A DNA stretch of 64,000 nucleotides from a virus. Numbering within the stretch: the first letter of the stretch is position 1; every line of letters begins with the position of its first letter. Made by a program: the position numbers and the translations under genes. Below the pieces are notes generated by a model that searched no databases, was not told the origin of the DNA, and saw only the letters and a program-made list of their open reading frames with translations. Of this stretch, positions 4,171 to 51,893 are shown piece after piece. The stretch lies in the IMG/VR virus record IMGVR_UViG_3300035704_000007, positions 1 to 64,000 of that record; one strand, given 5' to 3'.

Positions 4171-4196
4171 GGATTACCCCCAGGAATTGACGAACG
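4171..4196 (+). promoter_or_regulatory. GGATT-N17-AACG leader element before HNH gene
   Basis: GGATT at 4171-4175, exactly 17 bases, then AACG at 4193-4196. The element belongs to the family described at 34309, 40859, 42631, 49520 and 51868. The HNH start lies only 7 bases downstream, so if this is a promoter the message would be almost leaderless. Confidence 0.45.
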
Positions 4197-4203
4197 AAAT
4201 AGT

Positions 4204-4806
4204 ATGAAATTCACCACCATCGAGCAAATATTGCAGCGCCTCGTCTCCCAGCCTCCGACGGTTCTTGAAACCGGCTGCATGGTCTGGCCAGGGGAGAGCG
4301 ATGGGGCCGGTTATGGTCGCGCCACGCTGAACGGCAGGCGGGCCCGCGTCCATATCCTTATCGTTGAATCTCTTGTCTGTTCCATTCCCCCCGGCCATCA
4401 TGTTCACCACCTGTGTAAGAACCGTGCCTGCGCTAACAGAGAACATCTCGAATTGGTCAATACCAAAGAACATGGTGAGCGCCACCGAAAGCTATTCTGC
4501 CCCAAGGGACATCCCTACGCCACGGAAGGCCGTCCGCACAATGGCTCTCGGGATTGTCTGACCTGTCATCGCGAGCGCGAATACCGTCGCTCCCAAAAAC
4601 AGAAGGAAACCCGTCAATATGTTCGAGGCCCCTATCAGATCAAGCAGCGACGGCGTCCCATGACACCCGAGAAGGTCCGCGAGGTTCGGCGCCTGGCGAG
4701 AACCGGGATGCGGTACACTGACGTTGGCCGCCTTCTCGATCTCTCGGTCAGCCATGTCAGTCAAATCGTCTCCCGTAAAAGTTGGGCTCATCTCAGCGAC
4801 GGCTAG
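4204..4806 (+). CDS. HNH homing endonuclease with zinc finger and C-terminal HTH
   Basis: 200 aa, on the strand opposite its neighbours. The order is an HNH core (HHVHHLCKNRACANREHLE), then a zinc-finger-like segment (CPKGHPY..., C..C), then a basic stretch, then a C-terminal helix-turn-helix (VGRLLDLSVSHVSQIVSRKSW). Start 4204 was chosen because the HNH domain begins there; upstream in-frame sequence is antisense to the protease gene. It is a typical free-standing mobile nuclease gene inserted between two phage genes. Confidence 0.88.
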   Translation: MKFTTIEQILQRLVSQPPTVLETGCMVWPGESDGAGYGRATLNGRRARVHILIVESLVCSIPPGHHVHHLCKNRACANREHLELVNTKEHGERHRKLFCPKGHPYATEGRPHNGSRDCLTCHREREYRRSQKQKETRQYVRGPYQIKQRRRPMTPEKVREVRRLARTGMRYTDVGRLLDLSVSHVSQIVSRKSWAHLSDG

Positions 4807-4833
4807 TTCTCTTCCCACCCCTCTCCAGGGGGT

Positions 4834-4869
4834 GCCGGCTGCCGGCGAAGGAGAACGCCGGCAGCCGGC
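4834..4869. terminator. Strong 14-bp hairpin between convergent genes
   Basis: Perfect GC-rich stem 4834-4847/4856-4869 with an 8-base loop, between the plus-strand HNH gene (ends 4806) and the minus-strand HTH gene (ends 4912). There is no T-run on either side, so it may be a two-way hairpin terminator or a processing site. Confidence 0.55.
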
Positions 4870-4911
4870 CGAGACGCGCCATCCAATCAGGGATTGCTAA
4901 TGAAACAGCGC

Positions 4912-5142
4912 CTAGATCGCCGTTCCGTTATCAGTGTGCCTGTTGATTACCCGTGTTGTCAAGTACCCGATCCCTGGATAGTGCTCTCGGGAAATGAGCT
5001 TTTGCATGGCACTATAGCTGCACCCTGCCTCCCGGGCGAGCGCCCTGATGGTGACACCCCCGGCGGCATAGCGCGCCCGGTACCGCTCCGCTTCCTCGGT
5101 GCCAAAGGAGGCGTTGGGAGCGTCCGCGCCGCACGGGTTCAC
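4912..5142 (-). CDS. Small helix-turn-helix protein
   Basis: 76 aa from GTG 5142, which overlaps the TGA of the upstream gene (GTGA). An ATG 12 bases earlier is an alternative. The core RARYAAGGVTIRALAREAGC and then YSAMQKLISREHYPGI reads as a helix-turn-helix of the kind found at the end of phage HNH proteins. It may be a small regulator or a remnant DNA-binding tail of a homing nuclease. No nuclease motif is present. Confidence 0.5.
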   Translation of the reverse strand: MNPCGADAPNASFGTEEAERYRARYAAGGVTIRALAREAGCSYSAMQKLISREHYPGIGYLTTRVINRHTDNGTAI

Positions 5143-5318
5143 CGCCAGCGCCGCCATTCGAGCGACAGCGGCCCCCAGTTGAAATCCCAGCCGTCCCGCC
5201 AGCGCGTTCGCTCCGTGAGCCAGTACAGCGGCGAGAACCAGATCACCAGCGTCAGCCCCCAGCGACCGCCGCTGACGTCTGCCGCCCACCAGCCGCGCCC
5301 GTGGTCATTGGCGATCAT
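5139..5318 (-). CDS. Trp-rich small membrane-associated protein
   Basis: 59 aa from ATG 5318 with AAAGGAG at good spacing. It overlaps the previous gene by 14 bases. It contains eleven tryptophans and a short hydrophobic stretch (LTLVIWFSPLYWL) between charged ends, so it is probably membrane-bound. No family is recognised. The coupling to both neighbours supports it as a real gene. Confidence 0.5.
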   Translation of the reverse strand: MIANDHGRGWWAADVSGGRWGLTLVIWFSPLYWLTERTRWRDGWDFNWGPLSLEWRRWR

Positions 5319-5502
5319 CGTTCTTCTCCTTTCGGCGTCGCATCTCGGCTCTGATTGCCGCTCGCCGCCGCCGCCGCCGCCGCAACTGCTGCCCGGAGAG
5401 CGGCCCGGTCGGGGCAGCCAGGGCCGCCAGCTCGTGGCGCAGGGCGTAATCCGATTTCTCGGTCAAGAGGTCGCGAGCCGTCCAGAGGCATTTTTGCGTC
5501 AT
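5305..5502 (-). CDS. Small basic protein, unknown function
   Basis: 65 aa with a long arginine tract in the C-terminal third (residues ~41-57), which suggests nucleic-acid or membrane contact. The start overlaps the stop of the methyltransferase gene by 4 bases (ATGA). No known family. Confidence 0.45.
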   Translation of the reverse strand: MTQKCLWTARDLLTEKSDYALRHELAALAAPTGPLSGQQLRRRRRRRAAIRAEMRRRKEKNDDRQ

Positions 5503-6290
5503 GGCGTCATTGCCTCACCAATGAAAAATGTGTAAGCAGGAGGAATCGCCTGAGCTAATTCGTCGCGGGTCATCCACGTAATATTCATTGCTCGCCGCCA
5601 GGCCGCAACCCCATCCTCGGGACGGCGGCGGATCAATTGCCCGTTAGTCCGGTCGCGAAGTCCGCTGTTACCCCCGCCCGCAACAGTCACGAAGCCGTCG
5701 CGGCCCACGCGCGCTCCTCTGGCCTGGCTTCGCTCTCCGTGTCCGTGAACGCTGACAAACCCTTCTTTGCCGATAACGGCGCCCCGCTCGGCCAGCGGTC
5801 TCCAGCAGCCTCCGGAGACGACGGTGCAGAACCCGTCGCTCCCCGCCTGATAATCGCCGTGCGCCAGATGAGGCGGCGCCAGGACCAGGCGGCTCGTCTC
5901 AAACAGCCGGTGCCGGAACACCTTGAGCCCGAACATCAACCCGCAGAGCATGACCGGGTTCTCCAGCGGCGCCCCGACGACGTTCTCGATCACCCAGGGG
6001 CAGCCGCTCGCCCGCAGCAGCGCCCGCACCGGCGCGACGAGATCGGGATACGTAAGACGCGCGGCGGCAGGCGTCGCGGCCGAAAACTTCTGACAGGGCG
6101 GTGAGCAGTGGATGAGATCGAAGTCGCCCGGCCTGACGGCCGCCAGAAACTCCAGGGCGTCCCCCTGCTGAAAACAGAATGGATAATTTCGCTGCGGGGC
6201 ATGATCGATGCCCAATATGTCAGTGAACCCGGCGCGATGGTACCCTACGGCGGCCCCTCCCGCGCCTGAAAAGCAATCAAGCAGTCTCAT
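5499..6290 (-). CDS. C5-cytosine DNA methyltransferase
   Basis: 263 aa. It transfers a methyl group from SAM to carbon 5 of cytosine in DNA. Visible motifs: I (LLDCFSGAGGAAVGY), IV with the catalytic cysteine (CSPPCQKF, C66), VI (WVIENV) and VIII-like (FRHRLFE). It is somewhat short, with a small target-recognition region. No restriction partner is adjacent, so self-protection against host restriction is likely. It is co-transcribed with the downstream small genes through 4-base overlaps. Confidence 0.92.
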   Translation of the reverse strand: MRLLDCFSGAGGAAVGYHRAGFTDILGIDHAPQRNYPFCFQQGDALEFLAAVRPGDFDLIHCSPPCQKFSAATPAAARLTYPDLVAPVRALLRASGCPWVIENVVGAPLENPVMLCGLMFGLKVFRHRLFETSRLVLAPPHLAHGDYQAGSDGFCTVVSGGCWRPLAERGAVIGKEGFVSVHGHGERSQARGARVGRDGFVTVAGGGNSGLRDRTNGQLIRRRPEDGVAAWRRAMNITWMTRDELAQAIPPAYTFFIGEAMTP

Positions 6291-7060
6291 AGCGCCACTC
6301 CCTCCCCCAAAAACCTCCGCAGGCGCCGGATGGCCTGTCGGTGATACTGGTGCGAGCGCGACTCCGAGCGGTCCAGCCGGCCGGCAATGGCTTTCAGCGT
6401 CAGCCCCTCCTCGTAATAGGCCCGAATGACCTCCCGCTCCGTCGCCGGCAGCCAGCGCACCGCCTGCCAGAGGATCTCGCTCTCGTTGTCCAAGAGGGCG
6501 ATCGCGTCGGGGCCGGGTGCCGGATCGGCCACCTGCTCGCCGACCCGCAAGGGGTCGAAGTCGGCATCCGGGTCGGCCTGGTTGATGAGCGCGTCGAGCG
6601 AGACCACGCTGCGACCCTTCGCCTGCCGCTGCAAAGCCTGGAGCGCCTCCAGGTCGAGCCCGAGGTGGGCGGCCGTCTCTGCGTCCTCGGGTTCCCTCCC
6701 GAGCGCGTGTACGAGGCTGTCAGCGGCTTGAGCGAGCACTTTCTGCTTCGTCCGCACCGAGCGGGGCGTCCAATCCTCCGCCCGTAAATATTCGAGCATC
6801 GCGCCCCGGATCATCGAGATACAAAAACTGCTGAACTTGACGCCCCGCGCCGGCTCGAACCTGTCGACCGCCCGGACGACGGCGATCATCCCTTCGGTCT
6901 GCAGGTCCTCCGGGTCGATGCGGACCGGCACGCGCGGGATCACGCGCGGGATCGTCAGGCGGACCAGGGGCAGGTGCGCCTCGATCAGCGTGGTGCGCGC
7001 CTGCTGGCAGTCGTGCGTTTTCAGGGCGTCCCAGAGGGGAGCGGTGTCAGCCGGTGTCAT
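6287..7060 (-). CDS. Phage sigma factor, sigma-70 family with regions 2, 3 and 4
   Basis: 257 aa from ATG 7060 (GAGG upstream; longer frames run into the previous gene). Region 2 lies at about residues 24-96 (DLQTEGMIAVVRAVDRFEP, VKFSSFCISMIRGAMLEYLR), region 3 at ~98-150 and region 4 at ~195-250 (LPATEREVIRAYYEEGLTLK, then AIAGRLDRSESRSHQYH). The arrangement resembles FliA/SigF/WhiG-type alternative sigma factors and lacks region 1.1. It would redirect host RNA polymerase to phage genes, perhaps the late virion operon. It overlaps the methyltransferase start by 4 bases. Confidence 0.88.
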   Translation of the reverse strand: MTPADTAPLWDALKTHDCQQARTTLIEAHLPLVRLTIPRVIPRVPVRIDPEDLQTEGMIAVVRAVDRFEPARGVKFSSFCISMIRGAMLEYLRAEDWTPRSVRTKQKVLAQAADSLVHALGREPEDAETAAHLGLDLEALQALQRQAKGRSVVSLDALINQADPDADFDPLRVGEQVADPAPGPDAIALLDNESEILWQAVRWLPATEREVIRAYYEEGLTLKAIAGRLDRSESRSHQYHRQAIRRLRRFLGEGVAL

Positions 7061-7292
7061 GATCCTCGAATTGCGAACACCATCTTCTGACGGTCGAAAG
7101 CGCGGCGCCATATTGCCGCGCTAGCTGCGCTTGCGTGCCTTCACCGAGCAGCCAGCGCAGGGCGACCTCCTGGCGCGTCTCCGCGGAGCGGGGCGGGGCC
7201 CAGTGCCGCGCCGCCCCCCCGGCCCGTCCCGCTTCCCGGTGCGAAAGGCCGCGCCTCCCTTTCGTCTGCCAGCGCCGGCCACCCTGCTGCAT
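7047..7292 (-). CDS. Small HTH protein upstream of the sigma gene
   Basis: 81 aa. The C-terminal half (LRWLLGEGTQAQLARQYGAA, then LSTVRRWCSQFE) is a homeodomain/transposase-like helix-turn-helix. The N-terminus is Arg/Gly-rich. Its 3' end overlaps the sigma gene by 14 bases. It could be a small transcription or packaging (TerS-like) DNA-binding protein; a TerS assignment is not supported by its position. Confidence 0.6.
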   Translation of the reverse strand: MQQGGRRWQTKGRRGLSHREAGRAGGAARHWAPPRSAETRQEVALRWLLGEGTQAQLARQYGAALSTVRRWCSQFEDHDTG

Positions 7293-7510
7293 CAGTCAGC
7301 CTCCTGCAGCGCCGCTTCCAGCGCTTTGATCGCTCGGCCGAGAACCGCGTCATTCTCGGCAACCTGTGCCTCCGTCATGTCGCGCCGCCGCCCGAAATCG
7401 CTGATAACATCCGCCATCCGCAGCCAGCCGAGCCATTCGAGCGCGTCCTCGGCGGCGTCCCGCAGCGCCTGGTCCGGACCGGTCCCAATGGCAGCTTCCG
7501 TCTCGGTCAT
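7292..7510 (-). CDS. Small helical protein, unknown function
   Basis: 72 aa. ATG 7510 was chosen because GGAGG lies 6 bases upstream. It is acidic and helical, with two tryptophans (LEWLGWLRMADVI) and an Ala-rich C-terminus. It shares one base with the next gene's start. No motif is recognised. Confidence 0.55.
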   Translation of the reverse strand: MTETEAAIGTGPDQALRDAAEDALEWLGWLRMADVISDFGRRRDMTEAQVAENDAVLGRAIKALEAALQEAD

Positions 7511-7520
7511 CACTTGCCTC

Positions 7521-7646
7521 CTAAATCCCACGCCAATCGTCCCCCTCCTCGTCTTCCTCCTCGTCCGCCAGCAGCCGGCCCAGCGCCGAGAGCAGCAGCG
7601 CCAGCACGATCAGCGCGAGGAGCGCGGCCAGGCAGAGGGTGGTCAA
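7521..7646 (-). CDS. 41-aa single-span membrane protein
   Basis: TTG start at 7646 with GGAGG and a further purine run upstream. The protein is a hydrophobic helix (residues ~4-26, rich in Leu/Ala) followed by a strongly acidic tail (DEEEDEEGDD). No other start fits. It is the kind of small phage membrane peptide usually missed by gene finders. Function unknown. Confidence 0.5.
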   Translation of the reverse strand: MTTLCLAALLALIVLALLLSALGRLLADEEEDEEGDDWRGI

Positions 7647-7702
7647 GGTTCTCCCTCCAGCGCCGCATAGCACCGGGCGCAGAGCGGCTGGGTAAAATTC
7701 AT
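7643..7702 (-). CDS. Possible 19-aa leader peptide
   Basis: ATG 7702 follows AAGGAG, and the stop overlaps the TTG start of the membrane peptide gene by 4 bases. The peptide contains one CxxC pair (CARC). It may be a translated leader that couples to the downstream gene, or a chance frame. Confidence 0.3.
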   Translation of the reverse strand: MNFTQPLCARCYAALEGEP

Positions 7703-7722
7703 TGCCTGCTCCTTATGTTTGC

Positions 7723-7992
7723 TCACTTATCGGCCAACCGCTCTCCCGCCGCGGCAATCCGCTCGCCCACCGCCGTCTGGGCTTCCACCGCCGCGGTCAG
7801 CTCCGCCAGCCCCGCCTCGATCCTCTGCTGCCCGGCCGCGAGCCGCTCACCCACCAGCGCCACTCGCTCCAGCACCCGCGCGATCTCCGGTAGCCCCTCG
7901 CCGTGCCAGGCGCCTTCCGCCGCGCTGGCGATGTCGGCGAGCGCCTCGGCGATCCACTCGGCGCCGCGCAGAGGGCGCTCTCGATCAGGCAC
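7723..7992 (-). CDS. Helical protein, unknown function
   Basis: 89 aa from GTG 7992, which overlaps the upstream stop. It is an Ala/Glu-rich amphipathic helix throughout, with repeats of the GERLAAGQQR and GERIAAAGERL type that suggest a coiled coil. No enzymatic motif. Confidence 0.5.
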   Translation of the reverse strand: MPDRERPLRGAEWIAEALADIASAAEGAWHGEGLPEIARVLERVALVGERLAAGQQRIEAGLAELTAAVEAQTAVGERIAAAGERLADK

Positions 7993-8245
7993 CGCTGCCT
8001 CGCTGGCGCTGCCGGATCTCGCCTTGCTCCGAGAGATGGAAGCGGGGCTCGCTGTCTCCCGCCGGCCAGCGGATCGCCAGGTCGCCCCGGTCGAACGCCT
8101 CGACCAGCCCGGCATCGATCCGCGCCTGGTGCAGCCAACCCGTGACGCGCTCGATTTCGTCCTCCTGCATCCCTTCCGGCGCACCGAGGATAACCTGATA
8201 AAGCAGTTCCTTGTGTTCGTCGTCGCTCATCCGTAGGGGTCTCAT
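7985..8245 (-). CDS. Small acidic protein, unknown function
   Basis: 86 aa. ATG 8245 is preceded by AAGGGA; an alternative ATG at 8230 (MSDDEHKELL) lacks a clear site. The sequence (APEGMQEDEIERVTGWLHQA) looks like a small helical domain. It is the first gene downstream of the iteron-like region on this strand. Confidence 0.5.
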   Translation of the reverse strand: MRPLRMSDDEHKELLYQVILGAPEGMQEDEIERVTGWLHQARIDAGLVEAFDRGDLAIRWPAGDSEPRFHLSEQGEIRQRQRGSGA

Positions 8246-8315
8246 GCTGGCTTCCCTTCTTCGTAATGCTTTAGATCGCCCCCAACCGGCCTACCGCCTC
8301 CCGGCTTCCCTTCAT

Positions 8316-8353
8316 GCGCGCGCGCGTACTTAGGCTCTACTATACGCGCGCGC
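8316..8353. repeat. Alternating CG inverted repeat (potential Z-DNA/cruciform)
   Basis: GCGCGCGCGTA at 8318-8328 and its complement at 8343-8353 make an 11-bp perfect stem with a 14-base loop. The arms are alternating purine-pyrimidine tracts. The repeat sits beside the iteron-like array, as expected of an easily melted or structured origin element. It could instead simply end transcription. Confidence 0.5.
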
Positions 8354-8370
8354 ACGTGCCACCCGAAAAC

Positions 8371-8500
8371 AGCGTACACAGCGTACACTCGTACACTCGT
8401 ACACGCAAAGCCCCCCCTGATTGCTTGAGTGTACGCTGTGTACGCTGTTCACGCTGTGTACGCTGTTCATCCTGTTGCTCCTGTTGACGCTGTGTACGCT
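8371..8500. repeat. Iteron-like array, candidate replication origin
   Basis: The right half is exactly eight tandem 9-mers (8429-8500): GTGTACGCT four times, plus GTTCACGCT, GTTCATCCT, GTTGCTCCT and GTTGACGCT. The left half (8371-8404) carries the inverse: AGCGTACAC twice, then TCGTACAC twice. A 24-base centre separates them. The array lies immediately past the 3' end of the RepA-like ATPase gene. Position and structure fit binding sites for a replication initiator. Confidence 0.6.
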
Positions 8501-8505
8501 TTTTC

Positions 8506-9771
8506 TCATTTCTCTCTCACCTCTCTCTCTTCTTCAGAGGGGAAAGCCAGATCGTAAGAGCCGTTCTTCCGCGTCAGGTCGCCGTCGCGGAACATTTTCA
8601 GCATGAGGCTGCGCGTCGTCCCGGCGTTCTTCTCCAGGATGTCGGCCACGTCTTTGGGCGGCAGGGCACCCTTGCGGGCAATCAGTTCGCGGATCTCGAA
8701 CCGCTCCGGGCTCCGCTGCGTGTCCTCGAACTCGCCCTCTAAAACCCAGATCATCGCCGCTTCGTCCCACTTCAGCGCCAGGTCGCAATCCTGTACGTCG
8801 CGCCCGGTTCCCCGCAGCCGCGCCTCAGAGGAACCCCGCGCCCGCTCAAAGAGCAGGGTCGCATCGGCCGCGCCCGTCAGTCCCACCGAACCGGAAACGC
8901 CGTGCGACCAATCGCCCCAGTCCTCTTTTTTATTGGTGTGGTGGGCGATCAGGAGAGAAATCTCGAAGTCAATGGCGATCCGCAGCAGTGAGCGGCCTAG
9001 CTCATAATCCTCCTGGTAGACGCCGCTGCTCTTTTGGCCCACCTGGCCACTACGGAACGCGGCGAGCGTGTCGATTGCCACGAGGCGCGTCCGCGGATGA
9101 TCTGTCAACCAGGCGCGCAGCTCCACCAGTCCACCCGCCGAGATTGAAGGCCATTCGGGGTAGATGTGCAGATCCTCCGGCGCCGGAGTGCCGCCGAGGA
9201 TTTCGAGAAGCCGCTGCTGCAGCCGCCGGTCGTTGTCTTCCAATGCCAGATACAGCGCCTCACCCTGCTCCACGCGGATCTTGCCGAGCGCCATGCCTCC
9301 CGACGCGACGGCGAGCGTCGTATCATAGAGGAACCGGGATTTGCCCTTCTTCTGGCCCCCAGCCAGGATCGTCAAGCCCTGCGGGACGATCCGGGGAACC
9401 GCCCATTTCTGCTCTGCGATCACCATCCGTTCCAGGTCCTTCGCCGTGTAGCCGCGTATCGCTGGCCGGAAAGCCTCTGACTCATCAGCTTTCCCGTTAC
9501 TCGGCGGCGGTGAGCGGGCCAGCGCTTTCGCTTGTGGTGCGGTGCTGTTAGGCGCCGCTCGTCCATTGCTGCCCAAAGCGATCCGCACCCCCTCACGGAT
9601 CGCTGCCTCACTGCAGTGGGCCGCGCAGATGGGCTCGAACGTGCTGCTCGTCAGGGGTTTCAGTTGCAGCGTCGGTCCGTGGCACGCGGGACAAGTGCCC
9701 CGCCATACCAACCCGTCGAAGTCCAGATCGTGAATAACGCTCTCGAATAGCGCGAGCTTGTCTGCCTTCAC
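8506..9771 (-). CDS. RepA-like hexameric AAA ATPase/helicase
   Basis: 421 aa. The N-terminal zinc-ribbon-like cluster (CPACHG ... ICAAHC, residues 27-53) resembles a primase-type metal site. The RecA-type ATPase core has Walker A GGQKKGKS (138-145), LALEDNDRRLQQRL and Walker B RLVAIDTLAAF (D234). The C-terminal ~100 residues look like a winged helix. Related to RSF1010 RepA-type replicative helicases found in phages and plasmids. It probably loads or unwinds at the adjacent iteron-like array. Confidence 0.82.
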   Translation of the reverse strand: MKADKLALFESVIHDLDFDGLVWRGTCPACHGPTLQLKPLTSSTFEPICAAHCSEAAIREGVRIALGSNGRAAPNSTAPQAKALARSPPPSNGKADESEAFRPAIRGYTAKDLERMVIAEQKWAVPRIVPQGLTILAGGQKKGKSRFLYDTTLAVASGGMALGKIRVEQGEALYLALEDNDRRLQQRLLEILGGTPAPEDLHIYPEWPSISAGGLVELRAWLTDHPRTRLVAIDTLAAFRSGQVGQKSSGVYQEDYELGRSLLRIAIDFEISLLIAHHTNKKEDWGDWSHGVSGSVGLTGAADATLLFERARGSSEARLRGTGRDVQDCDLALKWDEAAMIWVLEGEFEDTQRSPERFEIRELIARKGALPPKDVADILEKNAGTTRSLMLKMFRDGDLTRKNGSYDLAFPSEEEREVREK

Positions 9772-9773
9772 GC

Positions 9774-9977
9774 CTAATCACCCCCATCAGGCAACTCGCT
9801 CGCCGGCCGCGGCTTCGGACGGTGCGCCAGGAAGTTCATCAGCGCCGTCTTCGGGATCAACCACTTCCCCCTCACCTTCTTCCCCGGTATCTCCCCGGAA
9901 TGGAGCCAATCATAGACCGTCTGCACGTGGACTCCGAGCATCTCAGCGGCCTCGCTGGCGGTGAAAACCCATGGCAT
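9774..9977 (-). CDS. Excisionase-type MerR-like DNA-binding protein
   Basis: 67 aa from ATG 9977 with GGAGG nine bases upstream. FTASEAAEMLGVHVQTVYDW, then SGEIPGKKVRGKWLIPK, is the standard small excisionase/helix-turn-helix_17 pattern. It sits directly before the RepA-like gene, so it may regulate replication. It could also act with the serine integrase in excision. Confidence 0.8.
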   Translation of the reverse strand: MPWVFTASEAAEMLGVHVQTVYDWLHSGEIPGKKVRGKWLIPKTALMNFLAHRPKPRPASELPDGGD

Positions 9978-10844: not shown

Positions 10845-10870
10845 GATACTTCTCCTTGCTCTTCAGAAAT

Positions 10871-10905
10871 CGATTCTGACCGTGCAGAATCGCCCAACCT
10901 GGGCG
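10871..10905. promoter_or_regulatory. Twin inverted repeats in the leader of 10844
   Basis: CGATTCTG/CAGAATCG (10871-10878/10885-10892) and CGCCCA/TGGGCG (10891-10896/10900-10905) overlap by two bases, upstream of the minus-strand start at 10844. They could be an operator for the adjacent XRE repressor-like protein or an attenuator. Confidence 0.4.
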
Positions 10906-10965
10906 TTCAGGGCTCTCCCCGCGCTTTCGTGCCAACCCCGCCCAAAGCCCCGCTCATTCGGCGTC

Positions 10966-12714: not shown

Positions 12715-12745
12715 TGTTCACTCCTTGACTGGCTGAGAAGAAAAA

Positions 12746-13316: not shown

Positions 13317-13320
13317 TTTA

Positions 13321-17355: not shown

Positions 17356-17381
17356 GACGCCGGCCTTCCACGCCTCGTTCC
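17356..17381 (-). promoter_or_regulatory. GGAAC-N17-CGTC promoter-like element
   Basis: On the minus strand: GGAAC at 17381-17377, 17 bases, CGTC at 17359-17356, ahead of the secreted-protein gene (start 17315). It lies in a ~47-base segment repeated nearly unchanged at 17641-17697. Confidence 0.6.
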
Positions 17382-17640: not shown

Positions 17641-17666
17641 GACGCCGGTCTTCCGCGCCTCGTTCC
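17641..17666 (-). promoter_or_regulatory. GGAAC-N17-CGTC promoter-like element
   Basis: On the minus strand: GGAAC at 17666-17662, 17 bases, CGTC at 17644-17641, 24 bases before the GTG start at 17617. Near-duplicate of the element at 17356, including the adjacent words GGTGATTATCCGCTCATCCC. Confidence 0.62.
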
Positions 17667-18999: not shown

Positions 19000-19025
19000 G
19001 ACGGCTGGCTGGGCGACGGTGTTCC
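19000..19025 (-). promoter_or_regulatory. GGAAC-N17-CGTC promoter-like element
   Basis: On the minus strand: GGAAC at 19025-19021, 17 bases, CGTC at 19003-19000, then TGATTGATTGG. It heads the 18956 gene. Confidence 0.6.
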
Positions 19026-20205: not shown

Positions 20206-20231
20206 GGAACACTTCCCTATCATCTAGCGTC
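20206..20231 (+). promoter_or_regulatory. GGAAC-N17-CGTC promoter-like element of the rightward operon
   Basis: GGAAC 20206-20210, 17 bases, CGTC 20228-20231, then TATAAG. It is the first of five such plus-strand elements in 20.2-23.3 kb. The segment downstream (GGAAGCAGACAAGAAGCCTC) recurs after the element at 21909. Confidence 0.65.
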
Positions 20232-21908: not shown

Positions 21909-21934
21909 GGAACAAAACGCCTTCTTGGTTGGTC
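21909..21934 (+). promoter_or_regulatory. GGAAC-N17-GGTC promoter-like element
   Basis: GGAAC 21909-21913, 17 bases, GGTC 21931-21934, then TATTAC. The spacer core ACGCCTTCTTGG resembles the spacers at 22762 and 42631. Confidence 0.6.
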
Positions 21935-22184: not shown

Positions 22185-22210
22185 GGAACAAGGCGCCCGT
22201 CCGCTTCGTC
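22185..22210 (+). promoter_or_regulatory. GGAAC-N17-CGTC promoter-like element
   Basis: GGAAC 22185-22189, 17 bases, CGTC 22207-22210, then CTACTAG. It precedes the 22248 gene by 37 bases. Confidence 0.62.
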
Positions 22211-22761: not shown

Positions 22762-22787
22762 GGAACAAAGCGCCTGGTTGCTTCGTC
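22762..22787 (+). promoter_or_regulatory. GGAAC-N17-CGTC promoter-like element
   Basis: GGAAC 22762-22766, 17 bases, CGTC 22784-22787, then TATCAG. It begins one base after the stop of the frameshifted gene and precedes the 22829 gene. Confidence 0.65.
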
Positions 22788-23245: not shown

Positions 23246-23271
23246 GGAACAAAGCGCCTTCTCGGTTCGTC
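23246..23271 (+). promoter_or_regulatory. GGAAC-N17-CGTC promoter-like element
   Basis: GGAAC 23246-23250, 17 bases, CGTC 23268-23271, then ATAATAAG. Spacer AAAGCGCCTTCTCGGTT is nearly that of 22762. Confidence 0.65.
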
Positions 23272-24563: not shown

Positions 24564-24961
24564 AACCGGGAGGCAACCCTGACAACCCGCAGGACTGGGA
24601 GGCGTTCGATTACGTGCAGTTTGCGGCGGACCAGGCCGCGAACGCGAGCAAACGTGAAACGCTCACCGACACCCTGACGAACGAGCCCGTTCAGCCCTTG
24701 ACGGTGCGCCGTCTCTCCTGGCAAGAGTTTTGGCACCGTCGCCCGACGAAGATCCATCTCGTTGCCCTCACCATGCGCGGCTGGGACCTGGCCGACCGGG
24801 CGCTCTGCGGTCAGGTGGTTAACCACGAGGAGGCCCGAGAAGACACCGGAACGGGGACGCACTGGGTCTGCAAGCGGTGCCTGATTGCCTATGCGAAGCG
24901 ACAACTGGCTGAGCCGTCGACAGCGCCGCTTGATGATCCCTTTCTCGCGGCTCCCCGCTAA
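24551..24961 (+). CDS. Last gene of the rightward operon, unknown function
   Basis: 136 aa. WQEFWHRRPTKIHLVALTMR and an ALCGQVV ... HWVCKRCLIA Cys cluster suggest a small zinc site. It converges with the sigma-like gene; the two stop codons overlap, and no terminator separates them. Confidence 0.6.
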   Translation: MQRLKPGGNPDNPQDWEAFDYVQFAADQAANASKRETLTDTLTNEPVQPLTVRRLSWQEFWHRRPTKIHLVALTMRGWDLADRALCGQVVNHEEAREDTGTGTHWVCKRCLIAYAKRQLAEPSTAPLDDPFLAAPR

Positions 24962-25620
24962 CGGGCCGGGGCTTGCCGCGCCACCGCCGTCTTCCGCCGG
25001 TGCCAGCTCTCCCGGTGCTGGCGCCGGACACAGATGCGGCAAGCCCGCTTGCCGTTGGGGCGGTGATAGGTATTCTCTTCCGTCAGCCGATGCCCCTGCG
25101 GGCAGCAGCCATCGGTGCCGCGCGGCTGGCTCTTCTGGCCCGCGCCGCGGGCGCGCTGCCGGACGCGCTGGAGGGCGTGGCGGACCGTCGATGCGGGGAT
25201 CCGCAATTGCTCGCTGGCGGCGGCGCTGGAGAGCCCGGCGCCATAGACGGCGGCGAGGCAGCGGCGCTCCAGCCGGCTGCTGCCGGCCCAGACCGCCGCC
25301 CAGAGCCGCTCCGCTTCCCACTGATCGAGTAAGGGCCCGGTCCAGTCGTCGCTGACCCCCTCCTGCTCCAACGGCTCTTCGCGCGCCCGCCAGCGGCGGG
25401 CCCGGCGCAGATAGTCGCGCGCGGCCCAGCGGGCCGCCCGCATCGCCCACTGGTCTCGCCCGCAGCCCGTCGCCTCGCTCCAGGTGGACAGGCTCTCCCA
25501 CATCCGCAGGTAGCCCTCGGCCAGCATATCGTCCGCCTCCGCCGGGAACGCCTGGAGATCCGGCCAAAGCGCGCTCCGTACCCGCCGCATCAGCCGGCGC
25601 ACTTCGGCCTCCTCGATCAT
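24958..25620 (-). CDS. ECF-like sigma protein with C-terminal zinc-finger/HNH-like module
   Basis: 220 aa from ATG 25620, overlapping the upstream stop by 4 bases. Residues ~25-80 read as sigma region 2 (AEADDMLAEGYLRMWESLST, AARDYLRRARRWR). Residues ~115-160 read as region 4 (LERRCLAAVYGAGLSSAAAS, then LRIPASTVRHALQRV). Residues 172-205 form CCPQGHRLTEENTY ... CRICVRRQHRE, the same zinc-finger block found in the HNH protein at 4204. A fusion of a group IV sigma-like core to a DNA-binding finger is unusual. It might recognise the GGAAC-type elements. Confidence 0.65.
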   Translation of the reverse strand: MIEEAEVRRLMRRVRSALWPDLQAFPAEADDMLAEGYLRMWESLSTWSEATGCGRDQWAMRAARWAARDYLRRARRWRAREEPLEQEGVSDDWTGPLLDQWEAERLWAAVWAGSSRLERRCLAAVYGAGLSSAAASEQLRIPASTVRHALQRVRQRARGAGQKSQPRGTDGCCPQGHRLTEENTYHRPNGKRACRICVRRQHRESWHRRKTAVARQAPAR

Positions 25621-34293: not shown

Positions 34294-34308
34294 GCCGTCC
34301 CCCAGGAA

Positions 34309-34334
34309 GGAAAAGCGCGGCTGCTTGGAGAACT
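34309..34334 (+). promoter_or_regulatory. GGAAA-N17-AACT leader element before an HNH gene
   Basis: GGAAA 34309-34313, 17 bases ending CTGCTTGGAG, AACT 34331-34334. The HNH start is 18 bases further on. Shares CTGCTTGG with 42631. Confidence 0.5.
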
Positions 34335-34352
34335 AGTCAGCGGGGGAAGTTG

Positions 34353-35252
34353 ATGAGAACACTGTCTGAGACGCATGTCGCCCGCTTCTGGTCTCGCGTT
34401 GATATTCATTGCCCGAACGGCTGCTGGCTCTGGACTGCCGGGAAAACGGTCGACGGGCATGGACGCTTCTTTGACGGTGTGAGTGAGCGCATGTCCCATC
34501 GCATAGCATGGGAGATGATGCGCGGGGAGATTGAGCCGGGACTTCTTGTTTGTCACGACTGTCCAGGTGGAGACGTGCCTGCCTGTGTAAACCCGTCTCA
34601 CATGTTCTTGGGCACGATATCGGAAAATACCATGGACCGCTGCCGCAAAGGAAGGACAGCACGAGGAGACCGCAACGGCTCTCATCAGGCGGCGGTCAGG
34701 CGCAGGCTGGGGCTGCCACCACAGCCGCCAGGGCGCGGACGCGGATGGAACCGAAAGCTGGCTCCTACGGAGGCTGACGTTCAACGCTTTTGGGAGAAGG
34801 TGGCCGTCGGGGATGTTGATGATTGCTGGCAATGGCAACCTGTGACAGACAGCGACGGCTACGGACGGATGCGCTGGGATGGCCATTACGTTCGAGCGAA
34901 CCGAATCGCGTGGATGATTGCCAGAGGCGCCATTCCTACCGGTCTCTGGGTCTTGCACCGCTGTGATAATCCCCCCTGCTGTAATCCGTCGCACCTCTTT
35001 CTTGGCACGTCTCAAGATAACGTCGCCGACAAAATGTCTAAGCATCGCCAATCGCGAGGTGAACGGCACCGTTCGAGTTTTAGACCGGGTCATAACCAGG
35101 GCGAGCGGAATGGAAGAGCCAAGCTCACGCCTGAAGACGTAGCGAATATTAGGTGTCTGGCCAACCTGCTGAGTGCGCCAGAGGTCGGCAGGATCTACGG
35201 AATTGCCAAGCCGAATGTCTATCGGATCTGGGATGGCAGTGGTTGGAAATAA
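34353..35252 (+). CDS. Double-domain His-Me finger (HNH_3) homing endonuclease
   Basis: 299 aa from ATG 34353 (GGGGGAAG upstream). Two tandem HNH_3/zinc-bound homing domains: LVCHDCPGGDVPACVNPSHM, then FLGTISENTMDRCRKGR (first copy); VLHRCDNPPCCNPSHLFLGT, then SQDNVADKMSKHRQSRG (second copy). A C-terminal helix-turn-helix follows (LTPEDVANIRCLANLLSAPE, VGRIYGIAKPNVYRIW). The tandem form suggests internal duplication. It is antisense to the flanking tail genes. Confidence 0.88.
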   Translation: MRTLSETHVARFWSRVDIHCPNGCWLWTAGKTVDGHGRFFDGVSERMSHRIAWEMMRGEIEPGLLVCHDCPGGDVPACVNPSHMFLGTISENTMDRCRKGRTARGDRNGSHQAAVRRRLGLPPQPPGRGRGWNRKLAPTEADVQRFWEKVAVGDVDDCWQWQPVTDSDGYGRMRWDGHYVRANRIAWMIARGAIPTGLWVLHRCDNPPCCNPSHLFLGTSQDNVADKMSKHRQSRGERHRSSFRPGHNQGERNGRAKLTPEDVANIRCLANLLSAPEVGRIYGIAKPNVYRIWDGSGWK

Positions 35253-40330: not shown

Positions 40331-40837
40331 TTATGGGGGCCATGTTTCAGCCCGGATTATCCGACAAATAGATGAGACTGTTACGCCGTAGCGAACGGCT
40401 AACTGGCCCCGTGATGCATCGCCAGCCGCATGGCATCGGCGTATTTCAGCGGCCAATTCATGGTTGAGCTTGCTTGTCGGTGTATGACGCAGCCTGTCTC
40501 CTTTGGCCTGGCGCCCCTTACGATTTCTGTCCTGGTTGTTCTGGGCTCGGGTGCCCAAGAAGAGATGATCCGGCCGACAGCAAAGACGATTGTCGCACGT
40601 GTGGCACACGTCGAGATGAGCAGGAAGAAAAGAATGTGTGAGTTTCCATACAACCCGGCTCGCCTTTGTGCCCCGCTTTCCCGCCCACGTTGTCAGCCCG
40701 TAACCGCCGCTCGTACCTGCCGTCCAGTTCCAGCAGCCGCCGCCGAAAGTAACGTCAATATGACGCCAGAAACGCTGTTCCTCGCTGGCTGTCCGCCGCC
40801 GATAGGGTCGTTTGACGCCTGGATTTCCCTTTGGCAT
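40331..40837 (-). CDS. HNH_3 homing endonuclease
   Basis: 168 aa, preceded by AGGAGG. Single His-Me finger domain (VCHTCDNRLCCRPDHLFLGT, then RAQNNQDRNRKGRQAKG) and a C-terminal helix-turn-helix (LAVRYGVTVSSICRIIRAET). Unlike most of the others it lies on the same strand as the tail genes, between tube and chaperone genes. The DNA-binding ends of this protein and those at 34353 and 49576 are similar. Confidence 0.88.
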   Translation of the reverse strand: MPKGNPGVKRPYRRRTASEEQRFWRHIDVTFGGGCWNWTAGTSGGYGLTTWAGKRGTKASRVVWKLTHSFLPAHLDVCHTCDNRLCCRPDHLFLGTRAQNNQDRNRKGRQAKGDRLRHTPTSKLNHELAAEIRRCHAAGDASRGQLAVRYGVTVSSICRIIRAETWPP

Positions 40838-40858
40838 GATGAATACCTCCTGTAAGAT

Positions 40859-40884
40859 AGTTCATCAAGTAGCCTTCCGTATCC
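40859..40884 (-). promoter_or_regulatory. GGATA-N17-AACT leader element before an HNH gene
   Basis: On the minus strand: GGATA at 40884-40880, 17 bases ending TTGATG, AACT at 40862-40859. It is in the same orientation as the HNH gene it precedes (start 40837), which shows the element follows the nuclease gene, not the host operon direction. Confidence 0.5.
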
Positions 40885-40885
40885 T

Positions 40886-42154
40886 TCACAGAGCGGTTAT
40901 TCCACAACTTACGTCCGCCTGCATGAAGCCGGCAAAAGTTGGATCGTAGATGGCTGCCAGCGTGTAAGTCGAGGAGTAGACCCCGGCGGCGTCCGCGCGC
41001 GTATTCGTAATGTATTTGAAGGGGAAGGTGAGCGAGAAGCGGTTCGGGAACCCGGCTTCCACTGCTGGCCCCCGGCAGAGGATGCGGCAGTAGCGCGTGT
41101 TCCGGGCCCGCAGGTCAGCCATCAGTGCCGCCGCGGCCGAGTCATGCTCAAGGATCATCGTCGCGCGCGGCTCGACCGCTTTTGGGATAACGTAGCTAAA
41201 GGACGGGTCCGCATCGTTCAGGGTCATCGGGAACACGTACCGCTCCGGCATCGCGAACTCAAAGGAGGAGACACGGGAGAGCTTCGTCAGCCCGCCCGGT
41301 GTGGTCGTGGTGATCGTCGGCGGGCCGCCGGTGAACCCGGAGACCACCAGCGTGGAGGCGTCGATGCCGGCCAGGTCGCCGGTAAAGGTGATGACATAGT
41401 TCGTGCCGGCGACGCCGGTCACGGTGGCATTATTAGTGCCGACGGTCGAGAGCCCCTGAAGAGCGGTCTGCAGGTTGGCCGTCGTGACCGCTACCGCCTG
41501 CGCCGCCGTCGACTGGCCTTCGTACGTGAGCACGAAGGTTCCGGTCGCGCCGTTGATCAAGAGCGTCTGCACCTCATTGACCGAGGTGCTGCTCCCGACG
41601 TAGACCGAGGCCGATTTCGGGTCTACCGGCAGCGCGGCAATGTCCGTTGGCGTCGGCGTGATCGTAATGCTCTCGCTTAACACCTGCCCCTGAATGGTGC
41701 CCGTCAGGCTGGCTTCGACATCCGTCCAGCGCATCGTCAGCGCGTTCACCACCGCATAGACCAACTGCTCTGCCTGCGCCGCCGTGCCCTTCTGGAGGGT
41801 GTAGGTCTGGAAGGCGTCGATGGCCCCGACCGAGGGCTTGAACGACCACAGCCGCGTCAGCGAAGCGCCGGCGGGCGTCGTCGGCGAGGTCGTCTTTAGC
41901 AGGGAGGAGAGCAAGTAAGGGAGGTCATTAAAACATATAGTGCTATTAGATATCGACGCGGTACTCGATTCTTTCCCCTGAACAGCCGTCGTCGGGGCAA
42001 GAAACCCGATGGGGGTATAAGGAGTCGTAGGAATCACCGGCGACGGGTCAAACCCGGTGCATAAAAGTCTGCGGTTACATGGGACAGCAACGCCTGGCGT
42101 GCTTTCCACACCCCACTGCCCCACATTAAGTGCGCTTGGTCTCTCTCCGGCCAT
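40886..42154 (-). CDS. Major tail tube protein
   Basis: 422 aa. Its position between the tail terminator and chaperones identifies it. The N-terminus (NVGQWGVESTPGVAVPCNRR) and the SFEFAMPERYVFPMTLNDAD region fit siphophage tube proteins. A beta-rich insert at ~190-300 (TTANLQTALQGLSTVGTNNA) looks like an added Ig-like surface domain. The C-terminus (ISLTF-type strands, YTLAAIYDPTFAGFMQADVS) closes the tube fold. Confidence 0.8.
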   Translation of the reverse strand: MAGERPSALNVGQWGVESTPGVAVPCNRRLLCTGFDPSPVIPTTPYTPIGFLAPTTAVQGKESSTASISNSTICFNDLPYLLSSLLKTTSPTTPAGASLTRLWSFKPSVGAIDAFQTYTLQKGTAAQAEQLVYAVVNALTMRWTDVEASLTGTIQGQVLSESITITPTPTDIAALPVDPKSASVYVGSSTSVNEVQTLLINGATGTFVLTYEGQSTAAQAVAVTTANLQTALQGLSTVGTNNATVTGVAGTNYVITFTGDLAGIDASTLVVSGFTGGPPTITTTTPGGLTKLSRVSSFEFAMPERYVFPMTLNDADPSFSYVIPKAVEPRATMILEHDSAAAALMADLRARNTRYCRILCRGPAVEAGFPNRFSLTFPFKYITNTRADAAGVYSSTYTLAAIYDPTFAGFMQADVSCGITAL

Positions 42155-42621: not shown

Positions 42622-42630
42622 AATCCTGAA

Positions 42631-42656
42631 GGAAAATCGCGCCTGCTTGGCGAACT
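42631..42656 (+). promoter_or_regulatory. GGAAA-N17-AACT leader element before the Vsr-like nuclease
   Basis: GGAAA 42631-42635, 17 bases containing GCGCCTGCTTGG, AACT 42653-42656. Gene start at 42680. The spacer core matches that at 22762 and 21909, linking this nuclease set to the accessory-operon set. Confidence 0.55.
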
Positions 42657-42679
42657 TTCAGGTAAGGAGTAAGCGTGCA

Positions 42680-43582
42680 ATGGGAAGGCCAAAGGGCTCT
42701 AAGAATGGGGTGCTTACGCTCGTTTGGATTGACTGCGAACGGTGCGGCACGCCGTTCAGTCGCCGTCCCGGTCACGCCCCAGGAGCAAAGTATTGCTCTC
42801 GCAAGTGCTATCGGCCCCCACGCCCGGACTATGTTTGCGAGACGTGCGGCAAAAGCTATCCGTACCATGCTTCCGTGCGGGGCCGCTTTTGCTCTTCGCT
42901 GTGCAAGCGGAACCGGGTGCAGAAATGCTGCCCCGAGTGTGGAAAGACTTTCGAGCCAACCGTGAGCAAAGCGGCAAAGTTCAATTACTGTTCGATTGGC
43001 TGCCGTCGCATCGCCGCAGAACGCGCTCGGGTGAAGATCACTTGCGAGACATGCGGAAAGCATTTCGAGCGGGTTCCGTCGCAGCCTGTCACAGGGAGGT
43101 ATTGCTCCAACGAATGCCTGTATGCCAGAGGTCGGGCGACAATCGTCTGTGCCTACTGCGGCAAAGAGCGGACGGTCAAGAAATATCGCGCCGAGGAGGG
43201 GCAGCGATGCTGTTCCAACCGCTGTGCAACGCTCTTGCGGATGCGAGATGGGTTTGAGCCCGGCGACTTCGGGAACAAGCGCCGGTCGGGTTATCGCACG
43301 GACATCGAGCGGTTGACGGAGGCCGTGCTGCTTGAACTCAACATCATCTATCTCTTCGAGCACAAGGTTAGTCGCTATTCGGTCGACTTTGCTTTGCCGC
43401 TTCACGGCATCGCGCTGGAATGTGACGGCTGGCAGCATTTGACCCTGGAGGGCCGCGAGCATGACAAAACCCGTGACGCATTTCTTGAGTCGCAAGGCTG
43501 GAGGGTCGTCCATGTGCTTGACCGCGAGATCCGCACGGATGCCGGAACAGCGATCCGGCGGGCTCTGGGAATCAAGAAGTAG
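42680..43582 (+). CDS. Five-zinc-finger protein fused to a Vsr-like PD-(D/E)xK nuclease
   Basis: 300 aa from ATG 42680 (AAGGAG ten bases upstream). Residues 15-185 hold five CxxC...CxxxC fingers (C19/22/39/43; 53/56/71/75; 84/87/104/108; 122/125/142/146; 157/160/178/182). Residues ~205-300 form a Vsr/DUF559-type nuclease (YSVDFALPLHGIALECDGWQ, D236, E247, D249, H253; SQGWRVVHVLDREI). The antisense insertion between tail terminator and HK97-gp10 genes suggests a homing endonuclease with modular DNA recognition. Confidence 0.82.
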   Translation: MGRPKGSKNGVLTLVWIDCERCGTPFSRRPGHAPGAKYCSRKCYRPPRPDYVCETCGKSYPYHASVRGRFCSSLCKRNRVQKCCPECGKTFEPTVSKAAKFNYCSIGCRRIAAERARVKITCETCGKHFERVPSQPVTGRYCSNECLYARGRATIVCAYCGKERTVKKYRAEEGQRCCSNRCATLLRMRDGFEPGDFGNKRRSGYRTDIERLTEAVLLELNIIYLFEHKVSRYSVDFALPLHGIALECDGWQHLTLEGREHDKTRDAFLESQGWRVVHVLDREIRTDAGTAIRRALGIKK

Positions 43583-49501: not shown

Positions 49502-49519
49502 TGTTAGCCTCCCTCAAAA

Positions 49520-49545
49520 GGAACAACCGGTCGCTTGGTCGAATC
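49520..49545 (+). promoter_or_regulatory. GGAAC-N17-AATC leader element before an HNH gene
   Basis: GGAAC 49520-49524, 17 bases ending CTTGGTCG, AATC 49542-49545. HNH start at 49576. It has the -35-like word of the accessory set and a -10-like word between the two sets. Confidence 0.5.
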
Positions 49546-49575
49546 TAATTACGTGTGTGCGAGAGGAGAAACAAG

Positions 49576-50565
49576 ATGGCATCTAGGGCGCGACGATCGC
49601 TCGAAGAGCGGTTTTGGGAGAAGGTTGAGATTGCCGGCCCGGATGACTGTTGGGAATGGATGGCGTGCCGCGATTTCCGTGGCTATGGCCGGCTCGGCTT
49701 TGGCGGCCACAATGGTGGCGTCGGGTGGGCTTATCGGATCGCCTACCAACTGACCAAAGGACCGATCCCCAAGGGCTATGATGTCCGTCACTTTGTTTGC
49801 CACCATCCCCCGTGCTGCAATCCGAAGCACCTGATCCTGGGAACCAGAGTCGATAACGTCAGTGACATGGTGGCGGCTGGTCGCTGGAAGAACGCGCCGG
49901 TCGCGCCGCCTGATCCGAACCGGGAGCGCTGGGAGCGTCCGCCCGACCCCGAGTACGTCTGTCACACTTGCGGGTTGATCTTCTCCCGGTCCTTCGGCCG
50001 CACTCAAATCGGCAAGCACACCTATTGCTGCCGGGAGCACTACTTCGCCGCTAAGGAGTTTCGGCTGGCAGAGCGTTTCTGGGAGAAGGTCGACAAACGC
50101 GGGCCTGATGAATGCTGGCCGTGGTTGGCGGCGCTTGGGCCGAATGGCTATGGTGTGATTGGGAAGCCCGGCGGCGGCGGTCTCCAGGCTCACCGGGTCG
50201 CCTGGGAGTTGGCTCACGGATCTATTCCCGCCGGGCTGATCGTGCGTCATTACGTCTGCGATAACCGCCCCTGCTGCAACGTCGCGCATATGAAGTTGGG
50301 CACCCGGCGACAGAACAGCGAGGACATGGTTCGAAAGGGACGCCAAGCTACCGGCGACCAAAGCCCGCGCAACCTTCACCCGGAAAGCTATGCCGTGGGC
50401 GAGGCGCATGCCAACTCCAAGCTGGTGCCGGAACAGGTGCGAGCGATTCGGCAGGAGTATGCCCGAGGAGGCATCTCCTTCAGATCGCTCGCCCTGCGGT
50501 ATGGCGTCTGCGCTGGCGTGATTGATCGGATCGTGCATCGCGAAACCTGGAAGCATATCGAGTAG
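49576..50565 (+). CDS. Double-domain HNH_3 homing endonuclease with zinc finger
   Basis: 329 aa from ATG 49576 (GAGAGGAGAAACAAG upstream). Two His-Me finger domains: VRHFVCHHPPCCNPKHLILG, then TRVDNVSDMVAAGR; and VRHYVCDNRPCCNVAHMKLG, then TRRQNSEDMVRKGR. Between them is a CHTCGLIFSR zinc finger, and at the end an HTH (RSLALRYGVCAGVIDRIVHR). Antisense cassette beside the major capsid gene. Confidence 0.88.
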   Translation: MASRARRSLEERFWEKVEIAGPDDCWEWMACRDFRGYGRLGFGGHNGGVGWAYRIAYQLTKGPIPKGYDVRHFVCHHPPCCNPKHLILGTRVDNVSDMVAAGRWKNAPVAPPDPNRERWERPPDPEYVCHTCGLIFSRSFGRTQIGKHTYCCREHYFAAKEFRLAERFWEKVDKRGPDECWPWLAALGPNGYGVIGKPGGGGLQAHRVAWELAHGSIPAGLIVRHYVCDNRPCCNVAHMKLGTRRQNSEDMVRKGRQATGDQSPRNLHPESYAVGEAHANSKLVPEQVRAIRQEYARGGISFRSLALRYGVCAGVIDRIVHRETWKHIE

Positions 50566-50575
50566 AAAGCAAACT

Positions 50576-51844
50576 TCAGGCAGAAAGATTGAGGACACGG
50601 CAAGCAAGCTGATCGAAGACGATAAAACCATCCTCGTACGACATAAAAATTGTCGAAGCCTGGCGTTCCATGAAGCGTTCCATTTCCTGGATCTCGGAGC
50701 CGATCTCGGTGACGTGCTCAATGGCGAAGCGCGAGTCGAAGCCGACGATGCGGGAGGCGGGCGCGTCGCTCGTGAGCCCGACAGTGACGCCTTCTCCGAG
50801 TTGCGGCTGTTGCAGGTTGAGTTGACCGAGGCCCGAGGCGGCGTTGATAGCGACCATGGGAATGTTCGCGGAACCCAGGTTCAGCAGTTCGAGCTGGACC
50901 ACTGGCCCCGATTGAGCAAGGACATGGTCGAGGCGGTAAGGGTTAACGAACAAGGCTTTGAACGACAACCAGGCTTTGGCCGTCAGGGTGCCCACCGTCG
51001 CCGCCGGATCGAGGGTGGTCAGGTTAGAGACCGTCGCGGCCGTGTTGGCGTTGCCGTCGCCGTTGACGAATACATCGATGGCGGCGGCAACCTTATCGAT
51101 TTCCGTCTGCACCTGCATCCGCGCCAGGTGCAGGCCGATCAGATCGATCCGCGCCCGGCGCAGGATCTCGTAAGTCATGTCGAGACCTTTGCCGTATTTG
51201 TGCAGCCTCACCGTCCGGTCCGCGCCCAGGAGCTTCGCACGAGGGATCTCAGCGCCTTGCGCCACGCGGTTGAACCGCTGGCTCGGCGCGTCGTTGACCA
51301 GGTAGAAGGCGCGGTAGGCGTCACCCTGGATCGGCGTCGTCATGGCGACCAGGTCCGCTAGCATGATCGCCGGGGCAATCTGCGGATAACGCGCCTGGGC
51401 GGCGTTCGCGAACGGCTCGATGACCGAGCCGACTGGCTGATCGGTCGAGGCGTAGAGGGCGCGGGTGTTCGGGTTGCGCCCGGAGGCGCGCTTGCAGACG
51501 CGCATCGCCCACTCGTAACCCAGCGCCCGCGTGTTCACGTCGCGGTCGAATGCCTCCCAGCTATCCGAACAATAACCGGTGTCCGCGTCCGACATGACGG
51601 AAATACCGGCGACCTGAAGCTGTCGCTGGAAGGCATCGAAGCCATCCCGATACTGCGAGGAGGGGTCGTGCACCTCCAGGTAGGCCGACAGCCCCATCCC
51701 GCGCTCGCCCGCCTCGCGGATGAACTGGTGGCTGTTGAGCGTGCGGAACAGTTCCGCCGGTCCCGGTCGCTGGCCGTGCGTCACGGCGCGCGGATCGGGA
51801 GGAAGCCCTGGGTTCGGGGGTGCAACGGGTGCGGCGGCTGCCAT
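50576..51844 (-). CDS. Major capsid protein (HK97 fold)
   Basis: 422 aa. LARMQVQTEIDKVAAAIDVF, GDAYRAFYLVNDAPSQRFNR, MTYEILRRARIDLIGLH and the C-terminal SEIQEMERFMERQASTIFMS, then EDGFIVFD, fit HK97-type capsid proteins. An extended acidic/proline N-terminus (~70 residues) may be a delta-like segment. Located after decoration and protease/scaffold genes, as expected. Confidence 0.85.
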   Translation of the reverse strand: MAAAAPVAPPNPGLPPDPRAVTHGQRPGPAELFRTLNSHQFIREAGERGMGLSAYLEVHDPSSQYRDGFDAFQRQLQVAGISVMSDADTGYCSDSWEAFDRDVNTRALGYEWAMRVCKRASGRNPNTRALYASTDQPVGSVIEPFANAAQARYPQIAPAIMLADLVAMTTPIQGDAYRAFYLVNDAPSQRFNRVAQGAEIPRAKLLGADRTVRLHKYGKGLDMTYEILRRARIDLIGLHLARMQVQTEIDKVAAAIDVFVNGDGNANTAATVSNLTTLDPAATVGTLTAKAWLSFKALFVNPYRLDHVLAQSGPVVQLELLNLGSANIPMVAINAASGLGQLNLQQPQLGEGVTVGLTSDAPASRIVGFDSRFAIEHVTEIGSEIQEMERFMERQASTIFMSYEDGFIVFDQLACRVLNLSA

Positions 51845-51867
51845 ATTAAAACCTCACTTGGATCGAA

Positions 51868-51893
51868 GGAAAACGTCTCTTGTTTGGTGAACT
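51868..51893 (+). promoter_or_regulatory. GGAAA-N17-AACT element before an ORF-less RNA-like region
   Basis: GGAAA 51868-51872, 17 bases ending TTTGGTG, AACT 51890-51893. No gene follows on this strand; the structured non-coding element does. Confidence 0.45.

Follow-up and report, generated by a model that had tools for sequence, protein, structure and literature searches.

A promoter-like leader shared by homing endonuclease genes of unrelated families in a temperate tailed phage

The viral record IMGVR_UViG_3300035704_000007 (66,945 bp), of which bases 1-64000 (~64% G+C) form the window analysed here, carries the genes of a temperate tailed phage, including those for an integrase-like recombinase, portal, capsid, tape measure and tail. 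Almost every gene between ~25 and 64 kb lies on the minus strand, as judged from a gene map built with an in-house codon-score finder, in which several nuclease genes are lacking. Among these structural genes lie homing endonuclease genes of different families and an element lacking an open reading frame (ORF), and ahead of most of them stands a common, promoter-like leader composed of GGAWN, exactly 17 bases and AACT, which is the subject of this report. No close relative of the phage was found: bases 1-25000 had no near match in the phage collection, searches of viral contigs with the capsid and the extracytoplasmic function (ECF) sigma factor gave no relative, the tail protein found only tail relatives of 31-40% identity in genome and viral contigs, and protein searches with phage proteins returned distant relatives or none.

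Four leaders were recovered both by pattern and by matrix. Leader A (34307..34336(+), AAGGAAA-N17-AACT(A)) precedes an HNH homing endonuclease gene with two HNH_3 domains (34353..35252(+)), which lies antisense in the structural block with its stop codon adjoining that of 35255-36118(-), while leader B (40857..40886(-), AAGGATA-N17-AACT(A)) precedes an HNH homing endonuclease gene with one HNH_3 domain (40331..40837(-)) that runs in the direction of the block. Leader C (42629..42658(+), AAGGAAA-N17-AACT(T)) stands ahead of a nuclease gene (42680..43582(+)) termed Vsr-like in the original prediction; its C-terminal domain is DUF559/MTES_1575, preceded by zinc-finger-like repeats. Leader E (51866..51895(+), AAGGAAA-N17-AACT(T)) is followed by the ORF-less, folded RNA-like element (51899..52195(+)), which fills the gap between the capsid gene and 52203-52637(-).

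Three further leaders are less typical. Leader D (49518..49547(+)) is a variant, AAGGAAC-N17-AATC(TA), intermediate between the nuclease leaders and a second promoter set described below, and precedes an HNH homing endonuclease gene with two HNH_3 domains (49576..50565(+)) that adjoins the capsid gene 50576-51844(-). The weak leader F (4169..4198(+), AAGGATT-N17-AACG) lies 7 bases ahead of the ATG of an HNH endonuclease gene (4204..4806(+)) whose product carries a CPxGH..CxxC zinc ribbon. An HNH_3 search of the record added two genes that had been overlooked: 60093..60677(+), with the weak leader G (60001..60026(+)), a strict GGATT-N17-AACT lacking both AAGG and CTTGG, 66 bases ahead of its ATG, and 645-1037(-), which has no leader. 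At the latter gene the ribosome site is enclosed in a very stable hairpin (1030-1085(-), -26.4 kcal/mol, z -6.1), much as hairpins cover homing nuclease genes in T4. A TnpB/Cas12f-like gene (55323-56459(+)), also antisense in the structural block, has a sigma-70-like site just upstream in place of the leader.

The mobile genes of the phage have the character of homing endonuclease cassettes, with HNH_3, GIY-YIG or DUF559 genes inserted between host genes. Pfam assigned HNH_3 to 4204, 34353, 40331 and 49576, four proteins that are related to one another, and DUF559/MTES_1575 to 42680, which has merely a 13-residue patch in common with 49576. Leader A shares 90% identity with leader C over 29 nt, and the proteins behind them have no similarity by blastp at E 1, which bears out the claim that mobile genes of unrelated families (HNH_3, DUF559 and an RNA) stand behind one promoter-like leader. 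Apart from that of 60093, the leaders of the plus-strand cassettes in the structural block start ~7-22 bases away from the start codon of the adjacent gene on the minus strand. The coding cassettes 34353, 42680 and 49576 end no more than ~10 bases from the stop codon of the minus-strand gene that follows; since both edges nearly abut neighbouring genes, these cassettes (60093 again excepted) consist of little more than leader and gene. The upstream edge of the minus-strand cassette (40331) is at the 40886-42154 stop codon.

All six elements of the original prediction are present, each with exactly 17 bases after GGAWN and in the orientation of its nuclease gene, including the minus-strand case. 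The strict form, GGAWN-N17-AACT, has seven matches in the record, five of them ahead of mobile cassettes (34309, 42631, 51868, 40859(-) and 60001), while those at 13474 and 64968(-) are probably due to chance. Other spacings between 10 and 25 bases gave 0-4 matches, except 21. Of the 9 mobile genes (a list that leaves out the RNA cassette), 4 had a strict match no more than 100 bp away, versus 1 of the 101 remaining genes (Fisher p = 1.1e-4), and random placement gave p = 3e-8 for strict matches near mobile genes. The loose form GGAWN-N17-AAYB, somewhat wider than the pattern first proposed, was mildly enriched (22 in the window versus 13.9 +/- 3.3 in shuffled sequence, with 1 of 100 shuffles reaching 22); as it is scarcely above chance, the argument depends on the strict form and on where its matches lie. 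When each leader was left out of the matrix in turn, 34309 and 42631 ranked 4th, 51868 and 40859 5th, 4171 9th and 49520 81st among 133,832 positions, making the first four certain and the last two weak by sequence alone. The leaders at 34309, 40859(-), 42631 and 51868 are thus one sequence family, to which 49520 is a related variant (AATC) and 4171 a weak candidate, and the core observation holds for these four and less surely for 49520, 4171 and 60001.

A second set of sites, GGAAC-N17-[CG]GTC, occurs nine times in the record, and eight of the nine lie directly ahead of small accessory genes. Five of these predicted ECF promoters are on the plus strand (20206..20231, 22185..22210, 22762..22787 and 23246..23271 with CGTC; 21909..21934 with GGTC and CTTGG in its spacer) and three, all with CGTC, on the minus strand (17356..17381 ahead of 16860-17315, 17641..17666 ahead of 17405-17617 and 19000..19025 ahead of 18621-18959). 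Judged by sequence, the accessory sites are textbook ECF promoters, and their -35, spacing and part of the spacer match the nuclease set in register. For example, in-register spacer identity between five nuclease sites and five of the eight accessory sites, leaving out the three on the minus strand, was 7.6/17 versus 4.3 +/- 0.5 for shuffled spacers (0 of 5000), and a matrix trained on nuclease leaders alone found its best other site at the accessory ECF site 21907. The three minus-strand sites ranked 4749 to 14158 of 133,832 under the nuclease matrix. The spacer motif CTTGG was said to unite both sets, which is true in part: it is intact and in register at 34309 and 42631, has one base changed at 51868 (TTTGG) and 40859 (CTTGA), is shifted by one base at 49520 and absent at 4171, and occurs exactly at just one of the five plus-strand accessory sites (21909). 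By hand count, GGAAA-N18-CGTC, with CTTGG between its two halves, stands ahead of the GIY-YIG gene 19043-19861(-).

Two sigma factor genes are encoded by the phage. The first (24958..25620(-)) specifies an ECF-like protein with regions 2 and 4 but no region 3, a DXXR motif and a C-terminal HNH-type zinc ribbon. It matched the profiles Sigma70_r2 (28.7 bits) and TIGR02937 sigma70-ECF (46.1 bits, cut-off 42.9), with the r4_2 profile (22.1 bits) below its cut-off of 25.7; the DXXR motif is DYLR at residue 69, which we place in region 2.4. An AlphaFold model made without an alignment had a mean predicted local distance difference test score of 61 and was not used. The zinc ribbon (residues ~172-212, CPQGH...CRIC) resembles that of the HNH protein 4204 (blastp E 0.006; compare 4498-4566(+)) and, weakly, those of HNH endonucleases from Gordonia and Mycobacterium phages (37 records, the best at E 0.01), the best 25 of the 37 matches all being annotated as HNH endonuclease. 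The start codon of the sigma gene overlaps the stop codon of the tail-block gene 25617-26900(-), and this position at the downstream edge of the structural genes suggests late expression. The second sigma factor (6287..7111(-)) is FliA/WhiG-like, with regions 2, 3 and 4. FliA-type promoters combine a TAAA -35 with a GCCGATAA -10; a search for them gave nothing convincing, and no such site was found in any leader; the sole exact intergenic GCCGATAA is at 11676-11683(+). The proposal that a second sigma-like protein with a different -10 preference reads the nuclease leaders therefore stands only in so far as a second, related promoter set and two sigma genes exist; no sigma factor with another -10 preference was identified, and the second one belongs to a type whose promoters are unlike the leader. 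A near-perfect sigma-70 promoter, TTGACG-N17-TATAAT, lies at 31284-31312(+) inside the minus-strand block.

The leader appears to be confined to this phage. None of 82 related nuclease loci in other viruses, with upstream sequence measured from the start of the protein match, contained a leader that outscored random windows taken from those loci (best score 6.5, 99th percentile of random windows 7.9) or matching the simple pattern. Likewise, no common leader above chance was found in 20 HNH upstream regions drawn from 6 other multi-HNH phage records, out of 19 other records (for one of the 6, G009, two of three HNH hits were used), the best pair being identical at 18/26 positions (shuffled up to 20) versus 23/26 in the present phage. 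These controls indicate a leader characteristic of this phage, one that on sequence grounds does not travel with the nuclease family, which fits the idea that one phage expression signal was co-opted. Scanning viral contigs for the leader itself gave 27 stretches, near chance by our own estimate for 16 fixed bases, whose sequence and composition give no sign of leaders like these. The literature searched, in which few subscription journals were covered, contained no report of several phage nuclease genes behind one ECF-type leader.

The ORF-less element behind leader E folds more stably than shuffled sequence (z -2.6 for 51895-52200; -2.7 and -2.9 for its parts) and had no Rfam match over 51899-52195. 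It may be a new structured RNA; that it acts in trans after being made from the leader would be a guess. A small protein from 51930-52175 is possible, a segment with no Pfam match and no support from the codon score. An omega-RNA (IscB/HEARO) identity, suggested by a likeness, was rejected. There was no match to HEARO (RF02033) up to E 10, DNA scans for the core in viral and genome contigs were empty, and four matches to a second core piece were chance occurrences inside unrelated sequence; a real HEARO beside an IscB-like (RRXRR) gene was detected as a positive control, and its consensus looks different. Two likenesses of 29-32 nt in 200 Pseudomonadota genomes were also judged to be chance.

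The reading favoured here, with a probability of roughly 60%, is that the leader is a phage-specific ECF-type promoter giving the nuclease cassettes their own transcript. The sequence family, its position at cassette edges, its orientation, its absence from related nuclease genes elsewhere and the two sigma genes are established, whereas its promoter nature is inferred. AAGGAAMA would be the -35 and AACT(A/T) the -10, separated by a 17-base spacer; the start codon, or the start of the RNA, follows 7 to ~35 bases further on (66 at 60093). Homing endonuclease cassettes and one RNA cassette would have settled among the structural genes, for the most part antisense to them, and each would carry the leader at its own upstream edge, gaining a transcript where the gene block could not express it. 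The leader and the GGAAC-N17-CGTC/GGTC promoters ahead of accessory genes would be sister classes within this phage. Like known ECF promoters (GGAAC-N16/17-CGTC), of which the accessory set is a textbook case, the leaders combine a GGAA-type -35 (GGAAA, GGATA or GGAAC) with a fixed spacer of 17 bases, but differ in having AACT in place of CGTC and in the conservation of spacer bases between sites. The phage's own ECF sigma may read the leader, at somewhat less than even odds, and a host ECF sigma is a rather less probable reader.

Several observations weigh against this interpretation. The CGTC-like -10 expected of ECF promoters was seen in the accessory set only; four leaders have AACT, which differs from CGTC at all positions, and one nuclease leader has AATC. 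In T. tengcongensis RpoE1 the DXXR motif reads the G of CGTC, as described in the available part of one study (PMC3397946), and the DYLR motif of the phage ECF sigma accordingly fits the accessory set and would argue against an AACT -10. A spacing of 21 bases gave nine strict matches, exceeding the number at 17, and a strict match is absent from 5 of the 9 mobile genes (4204, 49576, 645-1037, the GIY-YIG gene and TnpB). The spacer comparison also scored 7.0 at a shift of -3, so that part of the similarity between nuclease and accessory spacers reflects composition.

Promoter spacers are normally not conserved, and their conservation in the leaders means that something besides a sigma factor may bind. 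The conserved part could be an operator for a common regulator, either a phage repressor or an autorepressor nuclease, laid over ordinary promoters as with I-TevI in T4. The spacer bases around GCGCCTnCTTGG are conserved beyond the needs of a sigma factor, and in T4 operators, some proven and some putative, overlie the promoters of intron nucleases, according to the available text of PMC2988022. However, the leader spans a full -35, spacer and -10 architecture at a fixed 17-base spacing, the 18-30 bases ahead of 34353, 40331, 42680 and 49576 show no other evident promoter, and the RNA cassette lacks a nuclease able to repress itself, which leaves the operator an unlikely alternative. It is more doubtful still that the leader is part of the structural gene block, or an insertion target alongside which the cassettes settled. 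Plus-strand leaders in the structural block that start within ~7-22 bases of structural start codons (60001 excepted) do make flank and cassette inseparable without relatives, but each leader is oriented like its cassette, the minus-strand one included, whose leader begins at the 40886-42154 stop codon, and high-scoring sites under the nuclease matrix are found at cassettes and accessory genes, except 64966 and 35250. Recent copying among cassettes of one family, with no special function, would explain the near-identity of leaders A and C but is very improbable given the dissimilar proteins behind them and given that B and E keep the -35, spacing and -10 while much else has diverged, which points to selection.

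Two other phages offer points of comparison. The late promoters of phage 7-11 (GTAAtg-16-aCTA) are read by the phage sigma SaPh711_gp47, as set out in the available part of PMC8948821, so an ACTA-type -10 has phage precedent. Both systems comprise bipartite promoters, putative in the present phage, across one phage genome, the aCTA -10 being that of a phage-encoded sigma, but in phage 7-11 they have a different -35 and, in that account, precede late phage genes rather than mobile cassettes. In T4, the available text of PMC2988022 describes I-TevI, I-TevII and I-TevIII with their own middle or late promoters, one predicted for segB, seven promoter-less free-standing nuclease genes and an antisense segD with no identified promoter. 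The likeness lies in nuclease genes with their own phage promoters, putative here, and in RNA hairpins over ribosome sites; in contrast to the mostly promoter-less free-standing genes of that account, the free-standing antisense genes here have one leader in common.

A more elaborate scenario, which we consider speculative and improbable, is that the ECF sigma captured a DNA-binding zinc ribbon of an HNH homing endonuclease and that its holoenzyme reads a promoter in three parts, with GGAA as the -35, GCGCCTnCTTGG conserved in the spacer and a -10 that is relaxed; selfish nuclease and RNA cassettes would have converged on that promoter, escaping transcription with the late block. If true, an ECF sigma with such a ribbon would represent a mobile-nuclease domain recruited into transcription. 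More generally, unrelated nuclease genes and an RNA on one phage promoter would show selfish genes plugging into a phage regulatory class, and would supply several ECF-type promoters on which a phage sigma could be tried.

Three further features were observed in the window. An imperfect repeat array rich in CCTCACC/CCTCGCC lies between minus-strand genes beside a ParB-like gene (12741-13302), a strong inverted repeat with 25-nt arms (84%) occupies 54389-54453 at the upstream end of gene 52652-54361(-), and an inverted repeat at 8368-8449, AACAGCGTACACAGCGTACACTC, has perfectly matching 23-nt arms that stand 36 bases apart.

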